Source of the DNA: Candidatus Binataceae bacterium
GTDB taxonomy: Bacteria > Desulfobacterota > Binatia > Binatales > Binataceae
Reading direction: 5' to 3'
DNA: 64,000 nucleotides
Assembly (NCBI GenBank): GCA_036495685.1
Contig: DASXMJ010000149.1
Location: 1 to 64,000, forward strand
The translations under genes and the position numbers were made by a program. The first letter of the stretch is position 1; each line of letters begins with the position of its first letter. Of this stretch, positions 51,777-60,835 are shown piece after piece. The notes under the pieces are model-generated. The model saw only the letters and a list, made by a program, of their open reading frames with translations, searched no databases and was not told the origin of the DNA.

Positions 51777-54700
51777 TTGTTCAAGCGGGTATTGATTGCC
51801 AACCGGGGTGAAATCGCCATCCGTGTCGCGCGCGCCGCAGAGGCGCTTGGTGTCGAGTCGGTCAGTGTATACGCGCCTGCGGACGCGCTTTCGCTTCATA
51901 TCCGCGTAACCACCGAGTCGCGCGCACTCAGGTCCGAGGCGCCCTCGAACGATCCCGTCCGTGCCTACCTGGACGTGGAAGCGCTGATCGACGCCGCGAA
52001 GGCTGGTGGCTGCGATTGCGTGCATCCCGGATATGGCTTTCTGTCTGAGAATGCCGATTTCGCAGCGCGCTGCCGCCAAGAGGGCATCGCATTTATCGGG
52101 CCGCATCCCGAGACGCTGGCGTTGTTCGGCGACAAGCTGAGAGCGCGCGAGCTGGCCGGCTCGCTGGGCATCCCCATCATTCCGGGTAGCCCGCAAGCGC
52201 TGGCTAGCGCGGAGGAGGCCGCGGCGGTCGCCGAAACGGTCGGCTATCCGGTGATGCTGAAAGCGGCCGCGGGCGGAGGCGGGCGGGGGATGCGCGCCGT
52301 CGCGTCCGCCGATCAGATGGCAGCGGCTTTCGTACGCTGCCAGAGTGAAGCACTCGCAGCGTTCGGCGACGGCGCCCTATTCGTCGAGAAACTGCTCGCA
52401 CGCCCCCGCCATATCGAGGTTCAGGTTCTGGCCGACCGCGCCGGCGATCTGGTTCATCTCCACGAGCGCGACTGCTCGGTCCAGCTTCGCAACCAGAAAG
52501 TCATCGAGATCGCCCCGGCACCGGGGTTGGAAGCCGCTCTGCGGCAGCGCATCCTTGAGGACGCGATCCACCTTGCCCGTGCCGCAGGTTATGTGAATGC
52601 GGGCACAGTTGAGTTTCTGGTCAACCCCGAGCGCGGCGAGCATTTTTTCATCGAGTGCAATCCGCGCATCCAGGTGGAGCACACCGTAACCGAGCAGGTC
52701 ACCGGCATCGATCTGGTCGAATCGCAGTTTCGTATCTCAGCCGGCGAATCCCTCCAATCCTTGGGCATCTCCGACCAGGCCGCAGTTGCACGGCCTCGCG
52801 GGTTTGCCATACAGGCGCGCATCGTAGCGAACGGTACCGGCGTGTTGACCGCCTACAAGGAGCCGACCGGTCCGGGCGTGCGGGTCGATTCCTGCGGCTA
52901 TCTCGGCTATGCGCCCCCGCCGCAGTTCGACCCGATGTTCGCCAAGCTAATCTGCCAGTCGAATTCGACGCACACGTTCAGTTCAGCGCTCGATCGCACC
53001 TTACGCGCACTCGACGAGTTCCACATTTCCGGCCTGCCGACCAATCTTCGCCTGCTCCGCGCGATCCTCTCACATCCGGCGGTGCGGGCGGGTGATGCGC
53101 GCACCAGCTTCTTCTCAGAGCACCCCGACCTTGTCGCTTCGACGGGCGCGAAAGCGTCCGCGTCGGGTTCGCTGGCACTGCTCGAACAACAGGCGATGGT
53201 GCTCCGCGGCGGCAGAGACGGGCTCACCATATCCTCCACGCAGCCCCCATCGGTCAACCTGGTCGTCCCGGCGGGAGAGGAGGGTGTCGAAAGCCCGATG
53301 GCCGGCAATATCATCGAGCTTCCCCTGGAGGTCGGAGCCGCGGTTGAGGCCGGCGCGATTCTGCTGGTCATCAGCGCGATGAAGATGGAAACCGCCATTA
53401 CGGCGCCCTGCGCCGGGGTAGTGACCGCAATCAGCCCCGCCGAGATCGGCGCCACAGTCGCAGCAGGGCAGATCGTCGCGACGATAGCCCCATCCAGTCG
53501 CCCTAGCGCTGCGGCGAAGCCGCGCCACTACGGCGACGACAGCTGGGCACCGATGCTCGCCGACGTGCATGCCTTGCAACAGATCGCTCATCGACGTTTC
53601 GCGCCCGATTCGAGCGATCCAGGCGTCGTCCGCCAGCGGCGCCGAGGGAAGCTGACCTGCCGCGAACGCATTGACCTGTTGCTTGATCCGGGCACCTTCC
53701 GCGAGGTTGGCAGCCTTGCGGGGTTCGCGGATTACGACGACGAGGGACGCATAGCGGGCTTCACGCCCGCCAACCACGTGGGAGGTTGGGGCAAGATTGC
53801 TGGCCGCACGGCGGTGGTATGCGCCGACGATTTTACCTCGCGCGGCGGACACTCTGACGGCGCGATCGGGGGCAAGGCCGCGCACCTCGACCGGCTGTCG
53901 ATCGACCTACGCTGCCCATCGATCCGTTTGCTGGACGGCTCTTCGGGCGGCGGCAGCATTGCAGCAATGGTACCCAAGCAGCAAACGGCGGGTGAAAGCA
54001 GGGCACAAGAAAGCTCCGGCGCGATCGTTGCCGGCCGCCCGCGCGTGTCGGGGGAGGGTGGTTCGTTTCTGCCGGGCCACCTCGGAAGCACGATGTACGT
54101 ATCGCAGCTAAGCCAGGTGCCGGTGGTCAACCTGTTGCTGGGTAGTGTGGTGGGTATCGGCGCGGCGAAGGCGGTCCTCGGCCACTTCTCGGTCATGGTG
54201 CGTGACATCGCGCAGCTGTTCGTGGCCGGACCTCCTGTGGTGAGCCACGCGATGGGGTACGACATCAGCAAGGAGGAGTTGGGCGGCTGGCATATCCACT
54301 GTCGGAATGGTTCCGTCGACAATCTCGCCGACTCGGAGGAAGAGGCGACCGCAATGACGAAGCGGTTCCTTTCCTACCTTCCCTCCAGCGTCTACGAAGC
54401 GCCCCCGGTCTTGCCTCCGGACCCGAGTGATCCGGCAGATCGCCGCGAGGAAGAGTTGTTTACCATCATCCCCCGCAAACGCACCATGACGTTCGACATG
54501 CGCCGGGCGATCCGCCTGATAGCGGATCGCGACTCCTTCTTCGAGATCGGGCCATTGTGGGGGACCGATCAGATCGTGGGTTTCGTCCGCTTCAACGGCT
54601 ATCCGATGGGCTTGCTCGCATCCGACTGCAGGCACGTCAATGGCGGCGCACTCACGGCCGACGGGTGCGACAAACTCAAGCGCCACCTCGACCTCTGCGA

Positions 54701-55202
54701 CATGTTTCACCTTCCCATCCTCAACCTGATCGACAATCCGGGTTTCGCGGTAGGACTGGAGCATGAGTTGACCGGAACGATCCGCAAGGGCGGAGAGTGG
54801 ATGATCGCGTTCGCACAGGTCGAGGTTCCGATCTTCACCGTCATCATGCGCCGGAGCTTTGGGGTGGCCGGCAACAACTTCGCATCGCCCCGCAGCGGCG
54901 CCAGCGCACGCGTCGCGTGGCCCGCCGCCGACGTCGGCGGCATCCCGCCCGAGGGCGGGATCGAAGCCGCGTACAAACGCCAGCTCGCCGAGGCCGCCGA
55001 CCCCGCCGCCCTGCGTGCGGAGATCAATGCGCGCATCGAAAGTGCGCGCGGCCCCATAGGTCCGCTAAACCGTTTTCAGATGGAAGAAATGATCGACCCG
55101 CGCGACACTCGCCCATGGGTGTGTGAGTGGGGAGAAAACGCCTATCGCATCGTGTCGCAACCGTCCTTGCTGGTCCCCCGAGCAATCCAATTCAGGCCGT
55201 AA
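51777..55202 (+). CDS. single-chain biotin-dependent acyl-CoA carboxylase (BC-BCCP-CT)
   Basis: One 1141-residue polypeptide carries a whole acyl-CoA carboxylase. Biotin carboxylase spans residues 1-445 (ANRGEIAIRV, HPGYGFLSEN, ATP-grasp GGGGRGMR, ECNPRIQVEHTVTE). A carrier domain spans about 490-570 with the biotinyl lysine Lys536 in AMKMET. A fused carboxyltransferase follows from about 615 to the end (DDFTSRGGHSDGAIGGK, DGSSGGGS, LGSVVGIGAA, NLIDNPGFAVG, RSFGVAGNN). The order and size match the single-chain long-chain acyl-CoA carboxylase described from Mycobacterium; pyruvate carboxylase is excluded by the CT type. The substrate chain length is not deducible. The TTG start follows a GGAGAGG site. 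Confidence 0.95.
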   Translation: MFKRVLIANRGEIAIRVARAAEALGVESVSVYAPADALSLHIRVTTESRALRSEAPSNDPVRAYLDVEALIDAAKAGGCDCVHPGYGFLSENADFAARCRQEGIAFIGPHPETLALFGDKLRARELAGSLGIPIIPGSPQALASAEEAAAVAETVGYPVMLKAAAGGGGRGMRAVASADQMAAAFVRCQSEALAAFGDGALFVEKLLARPRHIEVQVLADRAGDLVHLHERDCSVQLRNQKVIEIAPAPGLEAALRQRILEDAIHLARAAGYVNAGTVEFLVNPERGEHFFIECNPRIQVEHTVTEQVTGIDLVESQFRISAGESLQSLGISDQAAVARPRGFAIQARIVANGTGVLTAYKEPTGPGVRVDSCGYLGYAPPPQFDPMFAKLICQSNSTHTFSSALDRTLRALDEFHISGLPTNLRLLRAILSHPAVRAGDARTSFFSEHPDLVASTGAKASASGSLALLEQQAMVLRGGRDGLTISSTQPPSVNLVVPAGEEGVESPMAGNIIELPLEVGAAVEAGAILLVISAMKMETAITAPCAGVVTAISPAEIGATVAAGQIVATIAPSSRPSAAAKPRHYGDDSWAPMLADVHALQQIAHRRFAPDSSDPGVVRQRRRGKLTCRERIDLLLDPGTFREVGSLAGFADYDDEGRIAGFTPANHVGGWGKIAGRTAVVCADDFTSRGGHSDGAIGGKAAHLDRLSIDLRCPSIRLLDGSSGGGSIAAMVPKQQTAGESRAQESSGAIVAGRPRVSGEGGSFLPGHLGSTMYVSQLSQVPVVNLLLGSVVGIGAAKAVLGHFSVMVRDIAQLFVAGPPVVSHAMGYDISKEELGGWHIHCRNGSVDNLADSEEEATAMTKRFLSYLPSSVYEAPPVLPPDPSDPADRREEELFTIIPRKRTMTFDMRRAIRLIADRDSFFEIGPLWGTDQIVGFVRFNGYPMGLLASDCRHVNGGALTADGCDKLKRHLDLCDMFHLPILNLIDNPGFAVGLEHELTGTIRKGGEWMIAFAQVEVPIFTVIMRRSFGVAGNNFASPRSGASARVAWPAADVGGIPPEGGIEAAYKRQLAEAADPAALRAEINARIESARGPIGPLNRFQMEEMIDPRDTRPWVCEWGENAYRIVSQPSLLVPRAIQFRP

Positions 55203-57387: not shown

Positions 57388-59013
57388 CTACTGCAGGACA
57401 AAATCCTTGTAGCCGTTGGCCGCTGCCTCCGTACACTTGGCCCGGTATACGGGTGCCGGACTAGCGTACAGGAGAATCGCGCGAGCCTTTCCGGGAATAT
57501 TCGCGCCGATAAACCACGAGTTAGCGCCGCTCAATAGCGTGTGGCTCCCCACCTCGTTGGCGTGCTCGACCCAGGCGTCTTCCGCCTTCACCGTGGGTGC
57601 GATGCGCGAGTAGCCGTTCGCGCGAACGTGGCGGATAGCGTCGGTGATCCATTCGACGATACTCTCGGCGCATACCGTGTAGTTGCAAAATGCGCTATTG
57701 GTCGCGATGAAGAGATTTGGGAAGCCGGCCGACTGAATGCCCAGCAGCGTGCGCGGGCCATTGGCCCATTTCTCCTTGAGGCTCTGTCCACCTTCTCCAC
57801 GGATATCAATGCGGGTCACCGCGCCGGTGATGGCGTCAAAGCCGGTCGCATAGATGATGACATCGAACTCGTACTCGCGGTCGCGGGTCTTGATACCCTT
57901 GGGCGTGATGCGCTCGATGGATGCCTCCTTGATATCGACCAACAGGACATTGTCGCGGTTGTAGGCCTCGTAATACTCGGTTTCAAGGGGAACGCGCTTG
58001 GATCCGAACGGATGGTCCTTGGGCACCAGTTTTTCCGCCACAGCAGGATCCTTCACGCGCGCGCGGATCTTGTCGCGTACGAACTCGGCGAAGTCTTCGT
58101 TCGCCACCCGGTCGGTCATGATGTCCCTGAAATTGCCCAGCCACTTACCGAAGCCGGGCAGCGCCCACAATTTCTCATACACCGCGAGCCGCTCTTCGCG
58201 CGGGACCTCCAGCGCCGTGCGCCGGTCGAACTCGTGCAGGAAAGCTCCCGTGGTTTCCCGGATTCTCTGGTGTATCTCGGGGTAAGTAGCCTTGAACCGC
58301 CGCTGGGTTTCTTCGCTCACCAGCCCGTTCCTGAGCGGCGCACAGTAATTCGGCGTGCGCTGGAATACGGTGAGATGACCGACCTCCTTGGCGATGACCG
58401 GGATGAGCTGGACGGCAGTGGCGCCGGTGCCGATCACCGCCACGCGCTTCCCGCTAAAATCGACCTTCTCCTTTGGCCACCTGGACGTGTGATATGACTC
58501 GCCCCTGAAGGTGTCGATACCTTCGAACGAGGGAACGTAGCGCGCCGACAGGATTCCCACCGCCGCCACCAGGAACTGCGCGCGCATGCGTTGTCCACTC
58601 TCGAGCTGGACATCCCATCGGTTGGTGCGCTCGTCGTACACCGCGGAAATGACGTGCGAATTGAACTGGATGTGGCGGCGCAGATCGAACCGATCGGCCA
58701 CGTAGTTCAGGTAGCGCTCGTTCTCCAGTTGGCCGGAAAAGTGCTCTTTCCAGTCCCACTCCTGGAGGAGCTCCTTTGAGAAGGAATAGCCGTAGGTCTC
58801 GCTCTCCGAGTCGAAGCGGCAGCCGGGATAGCGATTCCAGTACCACGTCCCTCCCACGCCTCCGCCATCTTCGAGACCCCGGACCGAGAGTCCGAGCTCG
58901 CGTAAGCGATAGAGTTGATAGAGTCCGGCGACGCCGGCGCCAATCACTATCGCGTCAAAACTCTCGATCCGTTCGGAGCGGGTATTCAGTGTCTGTGCTT
59001 GAGAATCTGCCAT
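57388..59013 (-). CDS. Baeyer-Villiger monooxygenase (flavin, cyclohexanone-monooxygenase type)
   Basis: The 541-residue class B flavoprotein monooxygenase has the FAD Rossmann motif GAGVAG at about 25-30, GGTWYWNRYPGCRFD at about 54-69, and the second NADPH motif GTGATA near 195. The type I BVMO fingerprint FxGxxxHxxxW is exact at Phe169, Gly171, His175 and Trp179. It inserts oxygen next to a ketone carbonyl to give an ester or lactone. It heads the operon with LLM and esterase and is divergent from the thiolase gene by 224 bases. Confidence 0.94.
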   Translation of the reverse strand: MADSQAQTLNTRSERIESFDAIVIGAGVAGLYQLYRLRELGLSVRGLEDGGGVGGTWYWNRYPGCRFDSESETYGYSFSKELLQEWDWKEHFSGQLENERYLNYVADRFDLRRHIQFNSHVISAVYDERTNRWDVQLESGQRMRAQFLVAAVGILSARYVPSFEGIDTFRGESYHTSRWPKEKVDFSGKRVAVIGTGATAVQLIPVIAKEVGHLTVFQRTPNYCAPLRNGLVSEETQRRFKATYPEIHQRIRETTGAFLHEFDRRTALEVPREERLAVYEKLWALPGFGKWLGNFRDIMTDRVANEDFAEFVRDKIRARVKDPAVAEKLVPKDHPFGSKRVPLETEYYEAYNRDNVLLVDIKEASIERITPKGIKTRDREYEFDVIIYATGFDAITGAVTRIDIRGEGGQSLKEKWANGPRTLLGIQSAGFPNLFIATNSAFCNYTVCAESIVEWITDAIRHVRANGYSRIAPTVKAEDAWVEHANEVGSHTLLSGANSWFIGANIPGKARAILLYASPAPVYRAKCTEAAANGYKDFVLQ

Positions 59014-59237: not shown

Positions 59238-60413
59238 ATGGCAAATTTCGAATTAAAGGACCGTGCCGCGATAGCAGGTGTCGGCAATTCGCCGTATGGG
59301 CGGCGGTTGATGCGCAGCCCGATCGATCTGGCCGCCGACGCAATTGCCAGCGCGCTGGATGACTGTGGCCTCACGCGCGATGAGCTGGACGGAATGATCG
59401 TCAGTTTCGGGTCGCCAATCGGTGCCGACGGAGACTCTATTGCGCAGCTGCTGGGGTTAAAGCTGCGGACCTGCAATCAGACTTGGGCTCACGGGCGCTT
59501 TACCGCGAGCTGCATCACGTGGGCCGCGATGCTGGTAAATGCCGGCTTGGCTGATGCCGTCGCCTGTCTCGCCTCGGTGAGCTTCTCGTCAATGCGGCGT
59601 CCGATGATGGGCGGCGCCGGCGACCGCGAGGGCACACGCGAGGCGGGAGGAGGCCACGGAGAAGACCCCGTGTATGGCATGACTTCGCCCGGCGCGGGCG
59701 CCGCTCTGGTGGCGCGACGCTACTTCGATCGCTATGGCTGCGACAGCCGCGCGCTTGCCTCGGTGCCAGTCGCGTTTCGCAAGCACGCCGCAATGAATCC
59801 GGCGGCGATCATGCGCGAACCTATCGATGTCGAAGCCCATCAGCGATCACGCTACGTCTGCGAGCCACTTCGTCTGCTCGACTACTGCCTCATCAACGAT
59901 GGGGCAGCATGCGTGATCGTGACGACCTCGGAACAGGCGCGCGATCTGAAAAAACCTCCGGTCTACATCGGCGGCATGCAGGGATTGCCGGGCGGCCGCG
60001 AGGAGTTCATCTGGGCATATCCCGGGCTCGGCGTGGCCCAACAATCGGTGTTTGAATATGAGGTCGGCCAGCAGCGCGTGTACCAAATGGCCGGAGTAAC
60101 ACCGACAGAGGTCGACGCGCTCTTCACCTACGACGCGTTCTCGATAGTTGCGTGGATTGCGCTTGAGCGCTTCGGCTTCTGCAAACCAGGGGAAGCGGCG
60201 GGCTTCACGCAAGACGGCCGGATCGAAATCGGGGGAGAGCTCCCGATGAACACCAACGGGGGTTTGCTCTCCGAGGCGCACATCATGGGCTGGAATCATC
60301 AGGTCGAAATCGTTCGACAGCTACGCGGCGAATGCGGCGCCAGGCAAGTGAAAGATGCCGAGGTCATTCAGTGGGCGAATGCGTATGGCGACTCGCTCAT
60401 CTATCACAAGTAA
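59238..60413 (+). CDS. thiolase-fold acyl-CoA protein (SCP-x/Ltp2-like), nucleophile absent
   Basis: The 391-residue thiolase-fold protein has AAIAGVGNSPYGRR at the start and the DDCGLTRDELDGMI helix. At the expected CASG nucleophile loop it reads RFTASC (residues 87-92): the position of the catalytic Cys is Thr89, and a Cys occupies the normal Gly slot. The C-terminal motif is GGLLSEAHIMGWNH, not GHPxGxTG. Such proteins with a DUF35 partner include steroid side-chain retro-aldolases (Ltp2 type) rather than true thiolases. It is 5 bases upstream of a DUF35 gene. Confidence 0.85.
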   Translation: MANFELKDRAAIAGVGNSPYGRRLMRSPIDLAADAIASALDDCGLTRDELDGMIVSFGSPIGADGDSIAQLLGLKLRTCNQTWAHGRFTASCITWAAMLVNAGLADAVACLASVSFSSMRRPMMGGAGDREGTREAGGGHGEDPVYGMTSPGAGAALVARRYFDRYGCDSRALASVPVAFRKHAAMNPAAIMREPIDVEAHQRSRYVCEPLRLLDYCLINDGAACVIVTTSEQARDLKKPPVYIGGMQGLPGGREEFIWAYPGLGVAQQSVFEYEVGQQRVYQMAGVTPTEVDALFTYDAFSIVAWIALERFGFCKPGEAAGFTQDGRIEIGGELPMNTNGGLLSEAHIMGWNHQVEIVRQLRGECGARQVKDAEVIQWANAYGDSLIYHK

Positions 60414-60418
60414 CGCGA

Positions 60419-60835
60419 ATGAAAGCAGCTGAGTACCAGAAACCGCTTCCGACGATTTCCTCATTGAACCGCCCTTACTGGGAAGGACTCAGACGACGGG
60501 AACTGCGGCTGCAAAAGTGCGACGGATGTGGGCTGACCTGGTATCCCCCGGCGCCGCTGTGCCCGGCCTGCTGGTCGCGCAAGTTCACCTGGACGCAGCT
60601 CAGCGGCCACGGTCGAATCAGTTCATGGGTGGTGTTTCATCAGGCCTACTTCCGTAGTTTTGAAGCCGACATTCCGTACAACGTCGTGGAAGTTGATCTC
60701 GAGGAAGGTCCGCGGGTCCTGGCAAATCTGCTCGGGGCGAAGGGCGAGATCCACTGCGGCATGCCGGTCGAAATAGTATTCGATGATGTGACCGATGAGG
60801 TCACGCTCGCGAAGTTCAAGCCCCGCACCGTCTAA
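60419..60835 (+). CDS. DUF35 / Zn-ribbon OB-fold acyl-CoA-associated protein
   Basis: The 138-residue protein has a rubredoxin-like zinc ribbon with Cys34, Cys37, Cys48 and Cys51 (CDGCG...CPAC), followed by an OB-fold (GHGRISSWVVFHQAY, YNVVEVDLEEGPRVLANL). DUF35 proteins form stable complexes with thiolase-fold partners and often bind acyl-CoA. I used the ATG at 60419, 5 bases after the thiolase-like stop; the frame is open further upstream but overlaps that gene. The pair is a probable heteromeric enzyme. Confidence 0.92.
   Translation: MKAAEYQKPLPTISSLNRPYWEGLRRRELRLQKCDGCGLTWYPPAPLCPACWSRKFTWTQLSGHGRISSWVVFHQAYFRSFEADIPYNVVEVDLEEGPRVLANLLGAKGEIHCGMPVEIVFDDVTDEVTLAKFKPRTV

Follow-up and report, generated by a model that had tools for sequence, protein, structure and literature searches.

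Gene pair and domain organisation

The DNA analysed here comprises positions 1 to 64,000 of contig DASXMJ010000149.1 (assembly GCA_036495685.1) of a Candidatus Binataceae bacterium, and this whole 64,000-nucleotide stretch is called the window. An earlier note, made from the letters alone, had described near its end a gene for a thiolase-fold protein followed, after 5 bases, by a gene for a DUF35 zinc-ribbon protein. This arrangement was confirmed: two open reading frames (ORFs) lie on the same strand at 59238-60413 and 60419-60835 with a spacing of 5 bases. The features on which the analysis rests are given below, with residue equivalents in the steroid side-chain aldolase Ltp2 and the bile-acid side-chain aldolase CtSal.

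59238-60413, + strand: thiolase-fold ORF without nucleophile Cys, 391 amino acids; proposed acyl-coenzyme A (CoA) retro-aldolase subunit
59490-59501, + strand: codons of His85-Gly86-Arg87-Phe88, the loop bearing the nucleophile in thiolases; Gly86 is the equivalent position
59502-59513, + strand: Thr89-Cys92 codons, where helix 89-102 begins; both Thr89 and Cys92 vary among relatives
60129-60140, + strand: codons of Tyr298-Asp-Ala300-Phe (YDAF); Tyr298 corresponds to Ltp2 Tyr294 and CtSal Tyr302
60279-60281, + strand: His348 codon; the residue takes the place of the general acid Tyr344 of Ltp2
60419-60835, + strand: stand-alone DUF35 ORF (ChsH2-type zinc ribbon and OB fold), 138 amino acids; proposed partner subunit
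60518-60571, + strand: C4-type zinc ribbon in the DUF35 protein, with the motif Cys-x2-Cys-x10-Cys-x2-Cys

The thiolase-fold protein matched Thiolase_C_1 of Pfam with 118.4 bits (cut-off, 28), and its match to Thiolase_N was weak (18.1 bits, below the cut-off of 26.4). Its C-terminal GGLLSEAHIMG loop lies at residues 341-351, and the claim that fold and loop are kept was thus borne out. None of the 20 listed NCBIfam families reached its own cut-off; the top match, PRK07855 'lipid-transfer protein', scored 276.9 bits where 469 are required. The genome of the window contains 12 Thiolase_C_1 matches. Orthologues of at least 73% identity were found in 17 of the 57 genomes searched, the window's own counted in, after which the next matches fell to ca. 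42% identity. Metagenome genomes are the source of the near relatives; many are labelled Candidatus Binataceae, Binatia or Binatota and others Deltaproteobacteria or Proteobacteria. Those relatives that are annotated bear the names thiolase, acetyl-CoA acetyltransferase or lipid-transfer protein. The Binatia are a little-studied bacterial class. The ratios of nonsynonymous to synonymous substitution rates (dN/dS) against orthologues were 0.068, 0.070, 0.091 and 0.100 in the four of six comparisons with computable dS, dS being saturated in the other two. The thiolase-fold gene is under purifying selection, and since dN/dS was 0.068-0.100, it is not a pseudogene.

The nucleophilic Cys is missing

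The position equivalent to the thiolase nucleophile was located with a MAFFT alignment (131 rows, one of which, L005, is a copy of the window protein) and with structure models. In the alignment, the nucleophile Cys of the Pyrococcus thiolase 7yvy and that of BbsB both fell on the column of Gly86, as did Gly89 of CtSal, which is named the nucleophile equivalent by its authors in the excerpts of the Sal paper used here (PMC12329534). The AlphaFold model of the thiolase-fold protein (predicted local distance difference test, 90.9; predicted template modelling score, 0.93; residues 132-142 and 144-146 under 50) has a strand at 78-82 and a helix at 89-102. The control was a model of a same-genome paralogue that keeps the Cys and an HDCF motif; in this model, Cys85 comes after strand 78-81 and stands 2 residues ahead of helix 87-100. 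Counting the register from the strand start, from the helix and from the Gly past the helix led to positions 85, 87 and 86 of the window protein, respectively. With the control model, the nucleophile-equivalent position appears settled only to this bracket of 85-87, whose residues are His, Gly and Arg; because none of them is Cys, the nucleophile Cys is missing, as the earlier note had claimed. That note had named another Cys at this place as the finding that would speak against it, and the count against the Cys-bearing control revealed none. Ahead of the N-terminal active-site helix, where a thiolase has its nucleophile, the protein thus has Gly86.

The residues that had been named instead did not hold. 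Thr89 had been placed at the nucleophile position, which the MAFFT column assigns to Gly86; Thr89 opens helix 89-102 and is replaced by Val in six of the eight proteobacterial members L082-L088 and L135. Cys92, which had been read as part of the CASG loop, is the fourth residue of the same helix and is unconserved, being Ala, Ser or Thr in several relatives with the same active-site signature (see below). The registers given by sequence-only aligners differ, phmmer placing the nucleophile Cys of 7yvy and BbsB on Cys92 and hhalign placing the true nucleophile on Trp83. Since these two and MAFFT (Gly86) disagree, sequence-only alignment is unreliable for the register of this loop.

Active-site residues define a Tyr/His class

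Columns 86, 298, 300 and 348 were taken as a signature and compared among 130 rows, which include the window protein and five PDB fragments and exclude the copy L005. The signature G-Y-N-Y was seen in 51 rows, G-Y-A-H, that of the window protein, in 36 and G-Y-C-H in 8, with others fewer. The G-Y-A-H rows come from Binatia, Pseudomonadota and Actinomycetota, and one haloarchaeal protein shares the signature in addition. Tyr stands at 298 in 124 of the 130 rows, and column 86 of these rows is Gly in 118, a gap in five and Thr in one, with no Cys; the five rows with His at 298 have Cys (three) or Ser (two) at column 86. The only Phe row, L093, has Ser there. That Cys and His disappear together while Tyr is gained matches the prediction for a switch from thiolysis to aldol cleavage. 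As a separate observation, L093 (8001-9146), a relative within the subfamily of the window protein, has lost both the catalytic Tyr and Gly86 and is possibly inactive or changed in its chemistry.

According to the excerpts of the Sal paper, from which the residue roles of Ltp2 were also taken, the base is Tyr302 in CtSal and Tyr294 in Ltp2, the acid is Cys304 in CtSal and Tyr344 in Ltp2, and His296 is the oxyanion residue of Ltp2 (PMC12329534). Mutants described there indicate that the Tyr base is essential in CtSal and its equivalent important in Ltp2, and that Cys304 is essential in CtSal, while His296 is contributory in Ltp2 (14-fold); thiolysis by CtSal was judged impossible owing to its Gly (PMC12329534). 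In the window protein, Gly86 stands for the nucleophile and Tyr298 occupies the place of the base within a YDxF motif, the combination expected of Ltp2/Sal-kind aldolases in the broad sense; a thiolase would have the His of an HD(A/C)F motif in place of Tyr298. Neither known aldolase is matched in full. Ltp2 has YDHF with both the base Tyr and the oxyanion His, and the YDAF of the window protein has the Tyr without the His; the second catalytic residue of Ltp2, Tyr344, is His348; and the YDCY motif of Sal with the catalytic Cys304 is not present, Ala300 aligning with Cys304 and with Ltp2 His296 in MAFFT.

Across 32 subfamily members, which span several phyla, His85, Gly86, Arg87, Phe88, Tyr298, Asp299, Ala300, Phe301, Glu346 and His348 are invariant; Thr89 and Cys92 are absent from both the invariant and the 90% lists.

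The proposed DUF35 partner

The DUF35 protein matched OB_ChsH2_C (PF01796, 65.7 bits) and zf-ChsH2 (PF12172, 42.6 bits), both over the Pfam cut-offs, and with its C4 zinc ribbon and OB domain it is of the ChsH2 type. The zinc ribbon is C4 in ChsH2 and C3H1 in Shy, as given in the excerpted source (PMC12329534). A same-strand DUF35 gene adjoins 34 of the 35 other G-Y-A-H rows, and all of these carry the C4 motif. The DUF35 protein of the window is stand-alone and is not fused to MaoC. This adjacency of the genes suggests that the thiolase-fold and DUF35 proteins may form a complex.

Structural and phylogenetic placement

Ltp2 was the nearest solved structure by phmmer (E value, 2e-58), by Foldseek (2.2e-37) and by VIA (Z 48.4; root-mean-square deviation 2.7 over 366 residues). 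The VIA scores below it were 46.7 for 4u4e, 44.9 for CtSal, 44.4 for 6esq (the acetoacetyl-CoA thiolase of an archaeal complex and the best true thiolase by this method), 43.3 for TbSLP, 42.8 for 7yvy and ca. 33 for biosynthetic thiolases.

In the phylogenetic tree, 80 rows, that is, all but the five His rows, fell on one side of a branch with a Shimodaira-Hasegawa-like approximate likelihood ratio test (SH-aLRT) support of 100. The subfamily of the window protein comprises 34 rows (SH-aLRT 99), and its sister is a 24-row group with mostly Asn- or Ser-type YDxF motifs and Tyr at 348. TcLtp2, CtSal and 4u4e were placed elsewhere, outside both. After three plasmid proteins were added, the subfamily grew to 36 rows (SH-aLRT 99) and included proteins of Rhodococcus sp. 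DK17 pDK3 and Natronosalvus halobius, which carry G-Y-A-H. Forcing the subfamily together with the Ltp2 group lowered the likelihood by 49.9, with a P value of 0.032 in the approximately unbiased test (p-AU); this evidence is moderate, the Ltp2 group having been picked after inspection of the tree. The window protein is Ltp2/Sal-like in layout and a member of neither family.

Gene neighbourhoods

The neighbourhoods were compared in 29 loci, 16 of which are Binatia orthologue regions and 13 of which come from named genomes. Ten of the 16 Binatia regions carry a gene for a family III CoA-transferase no more than 3 kb downstream and in the same orientation, and three of these ten (L056, L057 and L058) have two such genes in tandem. 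For the CoA-transferases of two relatives, the nearest solved structures were succinate-hydroxymethylglutarate CoA-transferase and formyl-CoA transferase; benzylsuccinate CoA-transferase was among the similar structures, and none of three CoA-transferases of relatives reached an NCBIfam cut-off. In 7 of the 29 loci, tblastn located an acyl-CoA dehydrogenase gene between two MaoC genes, on the strand of the orthologue in L045 and on the opposite strand in six; by Pfam, the MaoC proteins of L045 and L051 are mesaconyl-CoA hydratase-like. A dehydrogenase and two hydratases nearby are what a retro-aldol C-C lyase would need, and the order given for the Ltp2 system in the Shy paper is CoA activation, desaturation, hydration and aldol cleavage. 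No such block was found near the window copy. CoA-transferases 74-76% identical to that of relatives are encoded elsewhere in the window's genome, showing that such enzymes exist there and not that they are partners of the gene pair.

In proteobacterial relatives, the surroundings include another thiolase-fold gene together with DUF35. Pfam further identified a zinc alcohol dehydrogenase in L083 and an MmgE/PrpD gene in L135, and what looks by eye like a branched-chain-type ATP-binding cassette transporter is also present. The Rhodococcus and Natronosalvus clusters encode an adenylate-forming enzyme, a cyclase-family protein, MmgE/PrpD and luciferase-like monooxygenase (LLM) oxidoreductases. 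The Natronosalvus plasmid also carries two more thiolase-family genes with DUF35 (L145, 7644-8894 and 16629-17840), without YDxF at the aligned place. In the window's genome, a paralogue (L003; L150, 6489-8057) has Ser at the nucleophile column and keeps an HDAF motif and the GHP His; by eye it adjoins a DUF35 gene and two family III CoA-transferase genes, and it is possibly a Ser-for-Cys thiolase.

The window's own neighbours (luciferase-like oxygenases, a flavin-containing monooxygenase (FMO)-like protein and an amidohydrolase) were considered as pathway pointers and set aside, none of them having clustered with the neighbours of the other 38 loci. The gene of the FMO-like flavoprotein (57388-59013; PF00743, 58.2 bits) and the thiolase-fold gene are divergently oriented with 224 bp between them, and a shared regulatory region is possible. 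Farther off, 51777-55202 is a single ORF of 1141 amino acids in which biotin carboxylase, biotin carrier and carboxyltransferase can be recognised by eye in one chain.

Proposed function and the evidence against it

From the computed fold, Cys loss, conserved residues, DUF35 neighbour and neighbourhoods, we infer a complex, a reaction, a role for His348 and an order of steps. The gene pair probably encodes a two-subunit C-C lyase for acyl-CoA substrates, a retro-aldolase of the Ltp2/Sal kind, and its substrate is probably not a steroid. The earlier note had likewise considered a C-C lyase likelier than a thiolase, and this preference seems justified by the rank of Ltp2 as nearest structure by three methods, the Tyr and Gly residues and the motif split, as well as by the DUF35 gene beside 34 of 35 rows and the CoA-transferase or dehydrogenase/hydratase neighbours of some relatives. 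The reaction is proposed to run as follows. A family III CoA-transferase would convert an acid, probably not a steroid, to the CoA ester and, in some relatives, this ester would then be desaturated and hydrated by the acyl-CoA dehydrogenase and the MaoC hydratases. The thiolase-fold subunit would bind the beta-hydroxyacyl-CoA, and Tyr298 would remove the proton of the beta-hydroxyl, upon which the alpha-beta C-C bond would break to yield an aldehyde or ketone and an acyl-CoA enolate. His348 may reprotonate the enolate, perhaps aided by the invariant His85 and Arg87. Because Gly86 stands for the nucleophilic Cys, no acyl-enzyme intermediate would be formed. DUF35 would pack on the dimer and shape the cleft.

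A more far-reaching proposal is that the subfamily represents a third catalytic type, with a Tyr298/His348 pair instead of the Tyr/Tyr of Ltp2 or the Tyr/Cys of Sal, which acts outside steroid metabolism in a C-C cleavage pathway driven by a CoA-transferase (in places with dehydrogenase and hydratases) and common to Binatia, Actinomycetota, Pseudomonadota and haloarchaea; we consider its chances about even.

Several observations weigh against a retro-aldolase of this kind. VIA ties CtSal (Z 44.9) with the true thiolase 6esq (Z 44.4), and phmmer ranks the true thiolase 7yvy (1.7e-39) above CtSal (3e-32), so that the fold alone cannot part aldolases from thiolases. In alignments, His348 is the counterpart of the GHP His in 7yvy and BbsB, a residue that true thiolases keep, and its retention alone is no pointer to aldol chemistry. 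With Ala300 replacing CtSal Cys304 or Ltp2 His296, the active site is fully that of neither aldolase, and two subfamily rows deviate from the signature, L092 (Ser300/Met348) and L093. As for the genes around, L015 is without DUF35 in 20 kb, and the 20-kb region L044, which belongs to that genome, has none either; six of the 16 Binatia regions (L043, L044, L046, L047, L048 and L052) have no CoA-transferase downstream, L047 with just 2.6 kb of downstream sequence; and the window copy has none nearby, the nearest being 34 kb off and 28-29% identical.

Alternative explanations

The best-surviving alternative, which we nevertheless regard as unlikely, is another acyl-CoA reaction that needs no Cys, such as decarboxylation of a malonyl-type CoA, a synthetic aldol condensation or hydrolytic C-C cleavage. 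TbSLP, also without the nucleophile, is a weak malonyl-CoA decarboxylase, whereas CtSal did not decarboxylate malonyl-CoA (both from the excerpts of PMC12329534). A retro-aldolase is able to run backwards, and a cyclase-family gene adjoins the Rhodococcus and Natronosalvus members, but the catabolic-looking neighbours favour cleavage.

Still less probable is a steroid side-chain aldolase, that is, a functional Ltp2 or Sal orthologue of the Binatia, although it has several points in its favour besides Ltp2 being the closest structure. The window's genome contains a region (L148; G000:C205:1-10641) in which a KshA_C Rieske oxygenase gene (257.7 bits) lies beside HsaA-, KstD- and HsaD-like genes; the HsaA-like protein, at 401.6 bits, stayed below its cut-off of 450, the KstD- and HsaD-like proteins likewise fell short of their NCBIfam cut-offs, and a similarly strong KshA_C match was found in 4 of 56 other genomes. 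L043 encodes a protein with 33% identity to the HsaA-like one, which was the one tblastn match among the window and 40 stretches around relatives, and in a few relatives (L053 and L073) the orthologue has a CtSal-like gene as its neighbour. Opposite-strand genes stand beside the orthologue in L073 (6467-7585), L053 (7835-8953) and L051 (7418-9010), with a DUF35 gene ca. 3 kb from the orthologue; that of L073 branches with CtSal (SH-aLRT 100), and its L053 counterpart has the same G-Y-C-Q signature.

Against these points, the window protein falls outside the TcLtp2 group, in its own subfamily, and its DUF35 partner is unfused to MaoC. In the same 41 stretches, tblastn with the genome's own KshA-, KstD- and HsaD-like proteins gave no match at E <= 1e-20. 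Of the 17 genomes that carry the orthologue, 3 (G000, G020 and G029) also have KshA (E <= 1e-30), as do 6 of the 40 lacking the orthologue, so no link between the two is seen, and the same-genus genome G001 has KshA without the orthologue. The steroid link implied by the earlier note is thus unsupported by gene content: neither KshA co-occurrence nor tblastn of the 41 stretches ties the orthologue to steroid genes.

A non-catalytic lipid carrier or scaffold, as the name of the sub-threshold match PRK07855 would have it, is highly improbable, given the invariance of Tyr298, His348 and His85-Gly86-Arg87-Phe88 in 32 members from several phyla; 'lipid-transfer protein' is, moreover, a legacy label also borne by the aldolase Ltp2 (deposition 6ok1_A). 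A true thiolase with Cys92 or Thr89 as the nucleophile, for which the phmmer pairing could be cited, can practically be dismissed, given that MAFFT and the control model put the nucleophile at 85-87 and that both residues lie in helix 89-102 and vary among relatives.

Significance and comparison with known systems

If the family consists of aldolases, pathway reconstructions that use the names thiolase, acetyltransferase or lipid-transfer protein would need a different last step, namely a retro-aldol cleavage in which no CoA is consumed and an aldehyde or ketone is released. The known steroid aldolases would then represent two particular instances within a broader class of enzymes that is not centred on steroids, and the contrast of Tyr/Tyr, Tyr/Cys and Tyr/His would offer a direct mutational handle on the move of this fold from Claisen to aldol chemistry. 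In the literature searched, no publication dealing with the Tyr/His subfamily came up.

The closest known system is Ltp2-ChsH2(DUF35) of Thermomonospora curvata (6ok1), a steroid C3 side-chain aldolase. The window protein has the same fold and shares with Ltp2 the Gly in the nucleophile column, the Tyr base in a YDxF motif and a C4 DUF35. It differs in having Ala300 for His296 and His348 for Tyr344, in its separate clade, in a DUF35 that is stand-alone and not part of a MaoC protein, and in surroundings where tblastn found no KshA-, KstD- or HsaD-like gene. CtSal-Shy(DUF35) of Comamonas testosteroni (9myr), a bile-acid C5 side-chain aldolase, has the same fold, Gly89 for the nucleophile and Tyr302 as the base, whereas Cys304 is replaced by Ala300 in the window protein, the identity is 27-29%, and the zinc site of DUF35 is C4 against the C3H1 reported for Shy in the excerpts of PMC12329534. 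The putative thiolase 4u4e of Sphaerobacter thermophilus has the Gly/Tyr/x/His signature in common, with Ser at 300, but lies on a distinct branch at 33% identity. The benzoylsuccinyl-CoA thiolase BbsAB (7pxp) likewise combines a thiolase fold with DUF35, and the bbs operon includes a family III CoA-transferase partner, parallel to the CoA-transferase neighbour of the relatives described here; BbsB, however, keeps Cys85 and an HDAF motif, in contrast to Gly86 and YDAF. A thiolase-fold aldolase that lacks the nucleophile and works with DUF35 is already known, whereas its combination with a proposed Tyr/His pair, a stand-alone DUF35 and an apparently non-steroid context would be new.

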